Positions 35,047 to 38,772 of a stretch of 64,000 bases of DNA are shown in pieces. The stretch's first letter is position 1. The number at the start of each line of letters is the position of its first letter. Under the pieces are notes generated by a model that saw nothing but the letters and a program-made list of their open reading frames with translations, was not told where the DNA came from and searched no databases. A program made the position numbers and the translations under genes. The stretch is taken from assembly GCA_016860845.1 (NCBI GenBank), contig BOKF01000008.1, positions 62,001 through 126,000 on the forward strand, read 5' to 3'. This DNA comes from Chloroflexota bacterium. GTDB lineage: Bacteria; Chloroflexota; Anaerolineae; 4572-78; J111.

Positions 35047-36099
35047 ATGAGTACGACACGTGTTTTGTTGGCAGACGATCATGCCGTTGTTTGCGCCGGC
35101 ATTCGCAATGCCTTGCGCGAGCTGCCGGACCTGGAAGTGGTCGGCGAGGTGGCGGATGGCCCGACCCTTTTTACGGCGCTGGCTCAGGTTCATCCTGATT
35201 GCCTCCTCCTTGATGTGACGATGCCCAGTTTTGAGCCGTTTTCTGCCATTCACCAGATTCGGACGATGTACCCGGTGATGAAGATTTTGGTGGTGAGCGC
35301 TTATGATGATCGGGTTTACGTGCAAGGATTATTGAGCGCCGGCGTTGACGGTTATCACCTCAAAGATCAGCCCTTGAGCGACTTGCGTCTGGCAGTTCGC
35401 CGGGTTTTGGCGGGAGAAAAGTGGATTAGCAGCCGCCTGGTTGATAAACTGGTCCAGGGCGGCCCACCTACCCACCTGGCTCTCTCCTTGACCCCGCGCC
35501 AACGTGACTTGCTGCACTTGCTCCACCAGGGTTTTGACAACCATGCCATCGCCCGGCGCATGAACTTGAGCGTTAAAACTGTGGAAAATCATCTCACGCG
35601 TCTCTATCGGCAGCTCAATGTGCAGAGTCGCCTGGAAGCCGCCAATTATGTAAATCAGCATCCCGAATTGTTGGCTTTGTCCGGCCAACAGGCGGGGAGC
35701 GAACCGACAACTGATCGTTTTCTCGAGGCAGAACAGATCACCATGCTTTTGGTGGACGATAATGCTCGTTATCGCAACCAATTGCGGCGGATGGTTGGCC
35801 GAGTGTGCGCTCAGGCCATGATTTATGAGGCTGAGAATATAAGAGAAGCAACTCATTTAGCCGAACAGATTTCCCCGCAGTTGGTCCTGGTGGACGTTGT
35901 CCTGGGCGATGAGGATGGAATTCATTGCGCTCGCCGGATCAAAACCTTATCGCCCCTCTCGCGGATCGTTTTGATTAGCGCTTATCCTGACCGTGAATTT
36001 CACCGGCGAGGTTTGGAAGCCGGGGCCGTAGCATTTCTGGATAAAAAGGACCTTGACGCGACGGTATTGCGCCAGGTAATTGATGATTTGGTGGGGTGA
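35047..36099 (+). CDS. Response regulator with REC-HTH-REC layout
   Basis: 350 aa. Residues 1-120: NarL-type receiver with D10/D11, phospho-acceptor D56 (LLLDVTMP), S84 and K106. 144-205: LuxR/GerE HTH (LTPRQRDLLHLL to NHLTRLYRQLNVQSR). 230-350: a second receiver with D237/D238, D283 (LVDVVLGDEDG), S311 and a Lys at 333-334. Both receivers look phosphorylatable. NarL-family regulators normally have one receiver and end with the HTH. Eight nt separate its stop from the permease gene, so it is co-transcribed with the kinase fusion, its probable partner. Likely leaderless. Confidence 0.93.
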   Translation: MSTTRVLLADDHAVVCAGIRNALRELPDLEVVGEVADGPTLFTALAQVHPDCLLLDVTMPSFEPFSAIHQIRTMYPVMKILVVSAYDDRVYVQGLLSAGVDGYHLKDQPLSDLRLAVRRVLAGEKWISSRLVDKLVQGGPPTHLALSLTPRQRDLLHLLHQGFDNHAIARRMNLSVKTVENHLTRLYRQLNVQSRLEAANYVNQHPELLALSGQQAGSEPTTDRFLEAEQITMLLVDDNARYRNQLRRMVGRVCAQAMIYEAENIREATHLAEQISPQLVLVDVVLGDEDGIHCARRIKTLSPLSRIVLISAYPDREFHRRGLEAGAVAFLDKKDLDATVLRQVIDDLVG

Positions 36100-36106
36100 G
36101 AACCTG

Positions 36107-37132
36107 ATGAGTGAGCAAGCGGCATCTTTATCAACTCCCGGCCGGCGGTTGGCCTGGGCCAATGGGGTAGGCCGGTGGTACCGGCGCATGCTGGTTGAAC
36201 ACCGGTATTTGTCCGTATTGATCCTGTTGTTACTGGTGAGCGCCTTTTTAAGCCTGAACACCCGCACCTTTTTGACCAGCAATAATTTGTTTAATGTGGC
36301 CCGGGCCTGTTCGTGGATTGCCATTGCGGCGTTTGGGGAAAGTATGGTCATTATCATCGGGGGGGTGGACCTGTCGGTGGGGGCGGTGATGGCTCTCGCC
36401 GGGCTGATCAGCGCTTTGTGTTTGCAGGCCGGCATACCCGTCCCATTGGCCATCGGCGCCGGCCTTCTAACCGGGGGAGCTGCGGGCTGGGTCAATGGCC
36501 TCCTGGTGGGACGGGTCAAACTGCCGTCCTATATTATTACCCTGGGCACGATGAGCATTGCCCGCGGATTGGCCTTTGGCTTGACCGGCGGCTGGCCGGT
36601 CCGCGACCTTCCTCCCGGTTTTGGCATGCTGGGTGTTTATAAACTGCCCGTGTGGACGTGGGCCATTCCCCTGCCGGTTCTGATTATGTTAGGGTTGACT
36701 GTTTTGGTGAGCCTGTTGCTCGGCCAGACGGTCCTGGGGCGTTATATCTACACCCTGGGGAGCAGCGAGCGCGCCTTGCTGGTTTCGGGGGTCAATGTGG
36801 TCCGCATCAGAATATTGGTTTACACGTTGTGCGGCTTGTTGGCGGCGGTAGGTGGCCTGTTGATGACCGCCCGGTTGGGGGTCGCCGCTCCGACGGCGGC
36901 GTTAGGTTATGAGCTTGATGTGATTGCCGCCGTCGTCATCGGCGGAACCAGCCTGTTCGGCAGACAGGGCAGCGTGGTGGGGGTGCTCCTGGGGGCAGTT
37001 CTGATGCAGGTCACGCGCAACGGCCTGGTCTTATTGGGCTTTTCGGCTTACTGGCAAGCCGTGGCCATCGGGGCCATGATCCTCGTGGCGATTCTCTTTG
37101 ATTATTGGCAGCGACGTAAAAATTTAGAATGA
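36107..37132 (+). CDS. CUT2-type permease paralogue in the sensor operon
   Basis: 341 aa from ATG 36107; an upstream TTG frame overlaps the regulator gene. RbsC-type with about ten helices; IIGGVDLSVGAVMALAGL, KLPSYIITLGTMSIARG and AAPTAALGYELDVIAAVVIGGTSLFGRQG match the importer permease at 29109, including the ATPase-coupling segment. The gene ends in a 4-nt overlap with the kinase fusion. Family knowledge would make it a transporter; the context suggests it serves as the membrane receptor that passes binding-protein contact to the fused kinase, perhaps without transport. Confidence 0.9.
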   Translation: MSEQAASLSTPGRRLAWANGVGRWYRRMLVEHRYLSVLILLLLVSAFLSLNTRTFLTSNNLFNVARACSWIAIAAFGESMVIIIGGVDLSVGAVMALAGLISALCLQAGIPVPLAIGAGLLTGGAAGWVNGLLVGRVKLPSYIITLGTMSIARGLAFGLTGGWPVRDLPPGFGMLGVYKLPVWTWAIPLPVLIMLGLTVLVSLLLGQTVLGRYIYTLGSSERALLVSGVNVVRIRILVYTLCGLLAAVGGLLMTARLGVAAPTAALGYELDVIAAVVIGGTSLFGRQGSVVGVLLGAVLMQVTRNGLVLLGFSAYWQAVAIGAMILVAILFDYWQRRKNLE

Positions 37133-38772
37133 ATCCACTCTTAAAGGTCGTCAATCTATCCAAAAACTTTGGCAACTTGCTGGCCGTGCAGCAGGTCAGT
37201 TTTGAGATTGTTCCGGGGGAAGTGGTCGGCCTGGCTGCACGCAGCGGTTCCGGCAAAACGGTGCTGACCATGCTCTTGGCCGGCCTGTATCCTCCCAGCG
37301 AGGGCGAAATCTACTTTGCCGGCCAACAGTTGGAGTGGCCTTTCCCGGCCCGCGCCCTGGGCATTGAAGTGATCCACCAGAAGCCAGACCTGGCCGACCA
37401 GCTCGACATTACCAGCAATATCTTCCTGGGCAGCGAGATTGGCTGGCCGAACGTCGTTCATTGGTGGAAGGTGCCCAACCGCCGCTGGATGGATAAGGAG
37501 TCGGCGCGTATCCTGCGCCAACTGGATATGCCGTTTAACTCCCTGCATGAAAAAGTAGCTAATTTGTCAAGCGAAAAACGGCAGATGATTGCCATTGCCC
37601 GCACCATGACCCGCCCGGCCAAACTTATTATCATTGACGAGCCAACCGTCCTGTTGAGCTACTCTTACCAGCAGAAACTGCTGTCGTTGATCCAGAGCTG
37701 GCAGCAGCAGGGGATCGCAGTCATCTTTTGCAGCAACAGCCTGGACCACCTCTTTGCCGTGACCGACCGGATTATCGTGCTGCGGCAGGGTCATTGGGTG
37801 GCTAATTACCGCACCGACGAAGTGACCCGCGAAGAAGTGGTGGCCGCCCTGGTCGGCACTACGGACCGCCAACAACTGACTCCGGCGATCTGGGCCTTGG
37901 ATAGTTACTATCGGGCCAGGCAGCAGGCCGAGTACCTCTACCATCAACAGCAGTTGTTGGAGCGAGATTTGGCCGCTCAGGATAACCTGAACCAACAACT
38001 GATTGACCAATTAGCCACCCAGGTGAATGCCTTGGACCGGGCCAACCTGGCCTTACAAGACGCGCAGCGCCGCCTGCTGACCGAACGAGAGCAGGAACGC
38101 AAGCACCTGGCCCGTGAAATTCACGACCAGGTCATTCAGGATTTACTCTCCATCAACTATCGCCTGGAAGATGTAGGGGCCGATGAGGTTGTGACTGAGT
38201 TGCTGCAAGATGAAATCGCCGATATTCGGGACAGTATCCGAATGTTGGTAGATGACTTGCGCCGGATTTGTGGTAATCTGCGCCCGCCCACGATTGACAG
38301 CCTGGGCCTGGGCGCGGCCCTGCGCTCCTACACCCGTGATTGGAGCGAGCGGACCGGCATCGCGGTTAATCTGGAATTGGACCCCAACCTGGGCCGTTTG
38401 CCGGAGCCGACCGAACTGTCTATCTTTCGCATTGTCCAGGAAGGCTTGAGCAATATCCGCAAACATGCCCAGGCGAGCGCCGTTCAAATTTGTTTGAAAC
38501 ACACTTCACCCCGCACCCTGTTGATCGCTCTGGCCGATGATGGGCAGGGCCTCAACCATCGCTTTGACCTGGCCCACCTGTCGGCCAGTGGGCATTACGG
38601 TCTGCTCGGCATCAGCGAGCGGGTTACTCTGCTCGGCGGGCGGTTGAAACTGCAAAACCAGGCGGGCGGCGGCCTGCTGTTGGAGGTCGAAATTCCTCAT
38701 CCTCGCGTGGCCGAAAGCGGAACTTCCCCGTTGGAACAGATAGGGTGGACGGCCGAGGAGACGCGGTTATAG
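37129..38772 (+). CDS. Fusion of CUT2 ABC ATPase domain and NarL/DegS-type histidine kinase
   Basis: 547 aa. Residues 1-245 match the N-half of the importer ATPase (30160): Walker A ARSGSGKT (37-44, first Gly is Ala), Q84, signature LSSEKRQMIAIAR (146-158), Walker B LIIIDEPT (166-173), but the H-loop His is Asn203 (FCSNSLDHLF). 255-325: Gln-rich coiled coil. 318-385: HisKA_3 dimerisation region with phospho-acceptor His332 (REIHDQVIQDLL). 430-525: HATPase with N-box EGLSNIRKHAQ, DDGQG and GLLGISER. No membrane segment, so it must dock on the permease at 36107. Predicted to signal to the REC-HTH-REC protein two genes upstream. Confidence 0.93.
   Translation: MNPLLKVVNLSKNFGNLLAVQQVSFEIVPGEVVGLAARSGSGKTVLTMLLAGLYPPSEGEIYFAGQQLEWPFPARALGIEVIHQKPDLADQLDITSNIFLGSEIGWPNVVHWWKVPNRRWMDKESARILRQLDMPFNSLHEKVANLSSEKRQMIAIARTMTRPAKLIIIDEPTVLLSYSYQQKLLSLIQSWQQQGIAVIFCSNSLDHLFAVTDRIIVLRQGHWVANYRTDEVTREEVVAALVGTTDRQQLTPAIWALDSYYRARQQAEYLYHQQQLLERDLAAQDNLNQQLIDQLATQVNALDRANLALQDAQRRLLTEREQERKHLAREIHDQVIQDLLSINYRLEDVGADEVVTELLQDEIADIRDSIRMLVDDLRRICGNLRPPTIDSLGLGAALRSYTRDWSERTGIAVNLELDPNLGRLPEPTELSIFRIVQEGLSNIRKHAQASAVQICLKHTSPRTLLIALADDGQGLNHRFDLAHLSASGHYGLLGISERVTLLGGRLKLQNQAGGGLLLEVEIPHPRVAESGTSPLEQIGWTAEETRL

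Follow-up and report, generated by a model that had tools for sequence, protein, structure and literature searches.

Within a 64,000-nucleotide stretch of DNA from a Chloroflexota bacterium (GCA_016860845.1, contig BOKF01000008.1, positions 62,001-126,000; hereafter the window), we analyzed an operon at window positions 35047-38772 in which an ATP-binding cassette (ABC) ATPase domain and a histidine kinase are encoded as a single protein. The original prediction, made from the sequence of the window, had described three tightly packed plus-strand genes with this fusion as the last, and the open reading frame (ORF) and Pfam calls agree. The first gene (35047-36099, 350 aa) encodes a response regulator with two Response_reg stretches and a GerE domain (Pfam), that is, a receiver-helix-turn-helix-receiver (REC-HTH-REC) build. 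The second (36107-37132) encodes a 341-aa BPD_transp_2 permease (E-value 7e-40) with the coupling-helix motif TLGSSERALLVSGVN, referred to below as the sensor permease; its frame is open from 36080 to 37132, and the probable start, ATG at 36107, lies 7 nt past the regulator stop. The third (37129-38772, 547 aa; ORF call, Pfam, and AlphaFold) is the fusion, the start of which overlaps the permease stop (ATGA). The divergent importer that had been placed at 29109-34751 is likewise present on the minus strand and comprises a permease (29109-30122), an ATPase (30160-31680), and a sugar-binding protein (31806-34751).

In the fusion, Pfam assigns ABC_tran to residues 21-173, HisKA_3 to 323-387, and HATPase_c to 430-525, with the kinase domains above their cut-offs. 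The ABC domain (residues 1-242; 37129-37854, plus strand) retains Walker A, Walker B, Q84, and Glu171, and carries the signature LSSEK, with Gly replaced by Glu at position 149, and Asn203 at the H-loop. The AlphaFold model (mean pLDDT 79.5) is confident for the ABC domain and places behind it a linker of two helices, 247-281 and 288-351 (37867-38181, plus strand), the pLDDT of which is mostly 48-79, leaving their geometry uncertain; in this model helix 288-351 is unbroken from the linker into the helix bearing His332. The HisKA_3 dimerization and phosphoacceptor domain lies at 38095-38289 (His332 codon 38122-38124) and the HATPase_c catalytic domain, with DesK and VraS as sequence relatives in the PDB, at 38416-38703, both on the plus strand. 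The kinase half was compared by sequence only, the PDB lists of the fold search being filled by the ABC half. That this is a full NarL-type kinase with N-box and G boxes, as had been claimed, is borne out by the invariance of H332, N442, D470, G472, and G474 in 81/81 aligned fusions. No transmembrane segment was detected in the window fusion (maximum Kyte-Doolittle-19 score of 1.28), and a peak above 1.6 occurs in 3/81 fusions (maximum 1.72). No further Pfam sensor domain was found in the window protein either, leaving the ABC domain as the only evident input and link to the membrane.

A scan of one genome per species returned 278 relatives of the fusion, the best 80 of which were kept as loci, all belonging to Chloroflexota groups. 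The fusion is a single ORF in 80/80 loci, that of L077 being cut by a contig end. All 120 homologues listed (at least 120 exist, window protein included) carry ABC_tran and HisKA_3 in one protein, and 119 carry HATPase_c as well, the domain combination that the original prediction had proposed to search for; P0088 alone has no HATPase_c call. A search from a distant member again returned at least 120 proteins of the same build, some named Chloroflexus sp. (P0249 without a HATPase_c call), and the fusion is also found in strain Ornatilinea apprima P3M-1 (L067). It occurs in 27/400 sampled genomes of Chloroflexota. In 24 genomes, usually with one fusion each (two in G018 and G019), fusions score 630-1053 bits and the next ABC-only or kinase-only proteins at most 233 bits. 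Judged from these sequences, the fusion is a discrete, bounded, and old family. Two sets of longer frames were considered and set aside: that of L114 (1027 aa in its stretch; 1175 aa in L139) is a read-through past the kinase with no added domain by custom hidden Markov models (HMMs), and the long ORFs of 569-742 aa in L011, L013, L037, L041, L054, L061, and L062 are over-calls of an upstream start.

The ABC half departs from a competent nucleotide-binding domain (NBD) at the H-loop His, the second Gly of the LSGGQ signature, and the catalytic Glu. The H-loop His is kept in 0/101 aligned fusions, as is the signature Gly, which is replaced by Glu in 98/101, at what we take to be the position of CFTR G551D. 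The catalytic Glu is kept in 56/101, including Glu171 of the window, and lost in 45/101, and the Walker A Lys and Walker B Asp are kept in 95/101 and 99/101, respectively. The single-NBD ATPases of the same loci have the His in 27/28, the Gly in 28/28, and the Glu in 26/28, and the N halves of the neighboring two-NBD ATPases in 37/37, 34/37, and 37/37, respectively; the C halves of the latter are differently degenerate, with Arg in Walker A and Ser at the H-loop (37/37). Given what is known of ABC enzymology, from which the loss of hydrolysis is deduced, the ABC half is very probably hydrolysis-dead, which suggests a relay rather than a motor. In a tree of 22 of the 101 fusions, at most 16 rows per neighbor class, and L107-L110, the ABC halves fall into a single clade (100/100), which joins the single-NBD ATPases with moderate support (89/85) and not the N halves of two-NBD ATPases. 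As a separate observation, the Walker A Lys itself is replaced in L039, L052, L053, L064, and L080, where the ABC half may not bind ATP.

By position, 20 permeases serve a fusion, and 18/20 lack GGNxEAA in the cytoplasmic loop that is presumably the coupling helix. One of the two exceptions, L017, has its own single ATPase (7608-8474); the other, L043, keeps the importer motif. With L017 and L043 relabeled as importer permeases and L041_5926 (where the binding protein is split in two ORFs) as a sensor permease, a relabeling made after motif and operon had been seen, GGN and AA are absent in 19/19 sensor permeases and each is present in 58/60 others (window and its near copy L001 counted). In a midpoint-rooted tree that uses the same labels and omits L001, the sensor permeases form one clade (100/93), with the window importer permease as its sister branch (100/99). 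The sensor and importer permeases of the window are 55% identical, and the claim that the sensor genes are paralogues of the adjacent importer is therefore upheld for the permease and not for the ABC half, which groups with single-NBD ATPases. No PDB relative of the sensor permease was found by phmmer. At residue 118, Arg is present in 20/21 fusions with a dedicated permease vs. Gln in 23/42 without, a weak lead in which relatedness is uncontrolled. In L043 (7632-11599), a binding protein and an importer-type permease with GGNxxAA kept lie directly before the fusion with no ATPase gene between, and this fusion could be the sole NBD of its set.

Neighboring genes were taken from the ORFs of the 80 loci scored with custom HMMs; the overlap filter may hide genes, and the counts are thus lower bounds. 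Across all 80 loci, a REC-HTH-REC regulator was found in 60, a permease in 59, and a binding protein in 63. Among the 45 that are well flanked (5 kb or more upstream, 1.5 kb or more downstream), a CUT2-type permease is present in 42, a sugar-binding protein in 41, and the regulator in 38, so that the proposed constant company of permease and regulator is common and not universal. By a rough estimate from 156.8 Mb, a 20-kb stretch would contain such a permease by chance in 1.4% of cases (106 matches) or 10.5% (all 823 loose first-look candidates). The gene order varies. Regulator, permease, fusion is the order in the window, L001, L002, and L076, and permease, binding protein, fusion that in, e.g., L007, L015, and L054, and, behind a regulator, L036. 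In L009 and L010, a single 705- to 710-aa chain of permease and binding protein, with an extra hydrophobic segment between the two parts, stands between regulator and fusion; 33 clusters of this build (605-731 aa) were listed by build alone. The fusion follows the regulator with no permease between in 32/80 upstream gene chains, commonly with a divergent importer, and lies behind an importer permease in L003, L006, L012, L061, L063, L068, and L073. In a distant clade (L136, L137, L140, and L141), the regulator is last in the importer operon with the fusion convergent to it, and a six-row clade (L118-L123) adjoins a CofH/MqnC-like radical-SAM gene. Two further features of these neighborhoods were observed. 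Binding proteins directly upstream of the fusion in L007, L015, L029, L035, L054, L062, and L078 have lipobox-like N-termini (AAC, SAC, or VAC) and may thus be lipid-anchored next to the sensor permease, and a protein of 588-601 aa lies between permease and fusion in L046 (2724-4490), L055, and L058, the L046 copy of which has FG-GAP repeats and UnbV_ASPIC.

The regulator has the N-terminal receiver and LuxR-type HTH of the NarL/FixJ family and departs from the two-domain REC-HTH build in a second receiver, with intact phosphoacceptor, after the HTH. Phosphoacceptors D56 and D283 are invariant in 61/61 aligned regulators, a set picked for the REC-HTH-REC build, and two intact receivers suggest either a two-step switch or a further input. 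The intergenic DNA next to the regulator has a recurrent palindrome, aTTaGGGGAatTCCCCtAAt, of the form TTAGGGG-N4-CCCCTAA, found in 32/44 target intergenics vs. 1/238 (12 bits) or 0/238 (14 bits) control intergenics, i.e., those of the same loci without system genes. With the set split into halves, training on either half recovered 16/22 in the other at 12 bits. This operator lies within 300 bp upstream of 36/58 regulators, 38/70 binding proteins, 1/79 fusions, 3/62 other ATPases, and 5/463 unrelated genes; in many cases a regulator and a binding protein share a single site. Six of the nine binding-protein operons directly downstream of a fusion have their own copy, and 6 of 9 stretches outside the training carry one site, each upstream of a binding-protein gene. 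Genome-wide, the exact strict pattern has 18 sites in 12/24 genomes, 11/18 of which share a contig with a fusion and lie no more than ~15 kb from it; 11 of the 12 operator-bearing genomes have one strict site at such a distance. The reversed control pattern is commoner (209 sites, 170 of them in G009), and it is therefore the place of the operator, not its count, that carries the evidence. The proposal that the fusion system controls the importer gains support from this common operator, which ties regulator and importer genes together.

The window operator, GATAGGGGAAATCCCCCTAT (34972-34991, 24.5 bits), lies between divergent TATAAT boxes. On the sensor side, a plus-strand promoter-like sequence (35011-35039) consists of TGGGCA, 17 nt, and TATAAT at 35034, so close before the ATG at 35047 that the regulator transcript is perhaps leaderless. 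The box facing the importer (34922-34927, minus strand) is a string match only and was not listed by the consensus promoter scan, implying that it has no good -35. The operator center is 52.5 bp upstream of the sensor-operon TATAAT and 54.5 bp upstream of that of the importer operon, a layout that we read as pointing to activation of both divergent operons. A second, weaker operator-like site (41940-41959, 15.3 bits) lies between the permease genes at 40916-41863 and 42022-43077, which belong to a different ABC importer.

Turning to the divergent importer, its permease is GguB/RbsC-like with the coupling-helix motif ALGGNEQAAGLSGIN, and its ATPase is an AraG/RbsA-like protein with two NBDs (Pfam and NCBIfam). 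The 981-aa binding protein contains three tandem Peripla_BP_4 domains, a feature absent from the original prediction, and the domains are 91-92% identical (87.8-89.4% in DNA), indicating a recent or concerted duplication. Tandem binding-protein domains were also seen elsewhere, namely two in L014, L022, L017, and L059, three in L065, and four in L053. The combination that marks a CUT2 importer, a BPD_transp_2 permease with a Peripla_BP_4 binding protein, is present, the binding protein of the window lying in the divergent operon. No NCBIfam model reached its curated cut-off among the matches listed for seven window proteins (the best 25 for three of them); the nearest names below cut-off are a xylose ATPase for the ABC half, a ribose permease for the sensor permease, and RhaS for the binding protein, and as these are of sugar type the cargo is probably a monosaccharide. 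The importer and sensor operons are flanked by a class II aldolase-family gene (28471-29079) and a gene for a rhamnosidase-like six-hairpin glycosidase (38767-40146; both Pfam), which, when the RhaS-like binding protein is also considered, would be in keeping with a deoxy-sugar.

Based on the fusion, its neighbors, the residue losses, the dedicated permease clade, and the operator, each apparent in the sequences, we consider it likely that a retired importer-type assembly serves as a receptor for a sugar and turns on the neighboring importer. Docking, ligand, relay, phosphotransfer, and sign of control are what we infer beyond this. A ligand-loaded binding protein would dock on the permease dimer, which is dedicated in the window and would be the importer's own in some relatives. 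Beneath it would sit two fusion subunits, their ABC domains occupying the coupling-helix sockets and retaining ATP without normal hydrolysis, and the docking signal would shift both ABC domains against each other. The fused coiled-coil would relay this shift to the kinase dimer and change autophosphorylation of His332, and phosphate would then move to the regulator with its two intact receivers, which would bind the TTAGGGG-N4-CCCCTAA operator and activate the importer operon along with its own. This route from binding protein through permease and ABC domain to kinase is suggested by homology, gene order, and residue loss. We would give an even chance to the wider proposition that there exists a whole class of such ABC receptors, in which binding protein, permease, and dead ATPase have been withdrawn from transport and the ATPase pair, fused to a histidine kinase, switches mechanically, a private operator driving the working importer.

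Several observations weigh against this receptor model. No sensor-type permease was found anywhere in 24/28 chosen genomes (best score at most 273 bits). In the other four (G001, G002, G006, and G009) scores reach at least 415 bits, a range into which window-type importer permeases of G001 and G002 also fall, so that the score separates the sensor/window lineage from ordinary CUT2 permeases and not sensor from window importer. The idea that genomes without a linked dedicated permease harbor an unlinked one elsewhere was thus dropped for these 24, where the only permease left for the fusion, if it uses any, must be that of the importer; the family may accordingly have two ways of life, with its own permease or with the importer's. 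The fusion tree (built without L001, L013, L077, and L132) also scatters the loci with a dedicated permease, which, together with the absence from 24/28 genomes, suggests that it was lost or moved repeatedly. Two of the 45 well-flanked loci, L044 and L079, have neither permease nor binding protein, and no importer, regulator, or operator was found in the two 16-kb stretches (L134 and L135) of the clade beside the radical-SAM gene. Those two orphan stretches and L139, where an importer is present, are the three without an operator among the nine outside the training. The operator is missing from 12/44 target intergenics, and only 8/22 binding-protein starts not divergent from a regulator carry it. 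The operator seed had, moreover, been seen in the full set ahead of the split into training and test halves. The nearly symmetric spacing in the window is an exception: a TATAAT at 46-57 bp from the operator occurs on the regulator side in 8/32 and on the other side in 1/32, the window itself, and in L007, L015, L063, L065, and L073 the operator center is 28-34 bp from the normalized regulator start, a spacing that suits repression or another activator class. In 6/101 fusions the Walker A Lys is absent or falls in a gap, so ATP binding may not be general, and the AlphaFold model has a predicted template modeling score of only 0.50 with a low-confidence linker. Of the original prediction that the assembly is a "transceptor" controlling the importer, the gene-level part holds, in that the fusion is an old family with the expected neighbors and a common operator links regulator and importer, while the dedicated permease proved not to be universal and the relay route keeps the standing of a proposal.

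Other explanations must be weighed against the receptor model. The fusion might be a soluble kinase with an ABC half that reads ATP/ADP or only dimerizes and never touches a permease, the importer being a regulatory target only. The largely intact Walker A and B (Lys 95/101, Asp 99/101), the orphan clade, with no importer found in the stretches examined, and the 32 upstream chains in which regulator meets fusion directly would all suit such a protein, yet it would leave unexplained a permease clade that is dedicated to the fusion and has a changed coupling-helix motif, permease-binding protein chains in the same operon (L009 and L010), and fusions that immediately follow an importer permease (e.g., L063, L073, and L012), and we regard it as unlikely. 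We think it improbable that the fusion is a slow but working importer ATPase, with permease and fusion moving sugar and the attached kinase reading flux as in Bce-type modules. Retention of Q84 and, mostly, of Walker A and B is compatible with this idea, as is L043, where binding protein and importer-motif permease precede the fusion with no ATPase gene of their own between, but the H-loop His is lost in 101/101, the signature Gly has become Glu in 98/101, and the catalytic Glu is lost in 45/101, in proteins with near-completely intact neighboring ATPases. Quite improbable, in our estimate, is an occupancy sensor, in which fusion and true ATPase are rivals for the importer permease and the fusion reports an idle permease, the dedicated permease being a side branch. 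Such competition accords with the 24/28 genomes lacking a sensor-type permease and with the several loci at which the fusion follows the importer permease in the same operon; it has no need of a separate permease lineage with its own coupling motif, which includes the window permease and 18 further permease rows. An assembly or frameshift artifact joining two genes, the outcome that the original prediction had named as counting against it, deserves practically no credence, being contradicted by a single ORF in 80/80 loci, in 119 of the 120 listed homologues, and in the Chloroflexus-type clade, with nothing in its favor found.

If the wider proposition on ABC receptors is correct, this would be an ABC machine for the transfer of information in place of substrate. 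The way in which the state of an ABC importer reaches a kinase has long been debated for the Pst and Bce systems, where it involves contacts between separate proteins. Here the reporting surface is fused to the kinase and, by sequence, hydrolysis has been removed, so that the coupling step could be studied alone, and the family would be a natural experiment on an ABC domain without the normal closed, hydrolyzing dimer. The operator would be a ready reporter for ligand screens, and the occurrence of the build in Chloroflexus sp. proteins and in O. apprima P3M-1 means that bench material may exist.

Among known systems, Pst-PhoR comprises a working importer and a kinase that is a separate membrane protein, with PhoU as the link. 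The window system resembles PstSCAB-PhoU-PhoR in that the conformation of an ABC importer is thought to inform a histidine kinase over importer genes (PMC5775613). Unlike in that system, the ATPase domain of the window appears hydrolysis-dead and forms one protein with a soluble kinase, and the importer is of sugar type; no PhoU call was obtained among the 8 window proteins scanned with Pfam. BceAB-BceS has a separate kinase with its own membrane helices, an exporter-type permease, and an active ATPase. The likeness to BceAB-BceS lies in an ABC transporter and a kinase forming one sensory complex that controls transporter genes (PMC11109136). In contrast with the Bce-type module, the window kinase is fused to the ABC domain and lacks transmembrane segments, and the permease belongs to the BPD_transp_2 type. 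UhpB is among the NCBIfam matches of the kinase half below cut-off (106.7 bits). In UhpC-UhpB-UhpA, a duplicated transporter retired to a receptor acts with a NarL-type kinase and regulator and controls the working paralogue; UhpC is of the major facilitator superfamily type, and UhpB is a membrane protein. A retired transporter duplicate, a NarL-type kinase and regulator, and control of a working paralogue would be common to both systems, but that of the window has ABC parts and a binding protein, whereas Uhp has neither.

XylFII-LytS is a sugar-binding-protein sensor of the same kind as the CuaD type, and in both the binding protein makes contact with an extracytoplasmic domain of the kinase itself. 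Like the window system, CuaD-type sensors use a sugar-binding protein to trigger a two-component system for an ABC sugar importer (PMC10384115); unlike it, the XylFII-LytS/CuaD type has no permease or ABC domain in the signal path. Transporter-derived membrane parts that feed a kinase are familiar from Amt-kinase fusions. CbrA (PMC8871633) is a similar case. In CbrA and the Amt-kinase fusions, it is the membrane fold that is fused or related to the kinase, whereas in the window the kinase is joined to the cytosolic motor, with the permease as a chain of its own. A transceptor has receptor parts homologous to a transporter, and the sensor permeases are sister to the window importer permease. 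In PMC11109136, an S-component case is called the first prokaryotic transceptor, with BceAB-S cited as transporter plus kinase. Among the open-licence PubMed Central papers listed in literature searches, none has a title or abstract opening that tells of a histidine kinase with an ABC ATPase domain in the same protein. Transporters that inform kinases and transporter-derived receptors are already known, and we rate the ABC-domain fusion as a new build of this familiar kind with an unusually clear evolutionary signature.

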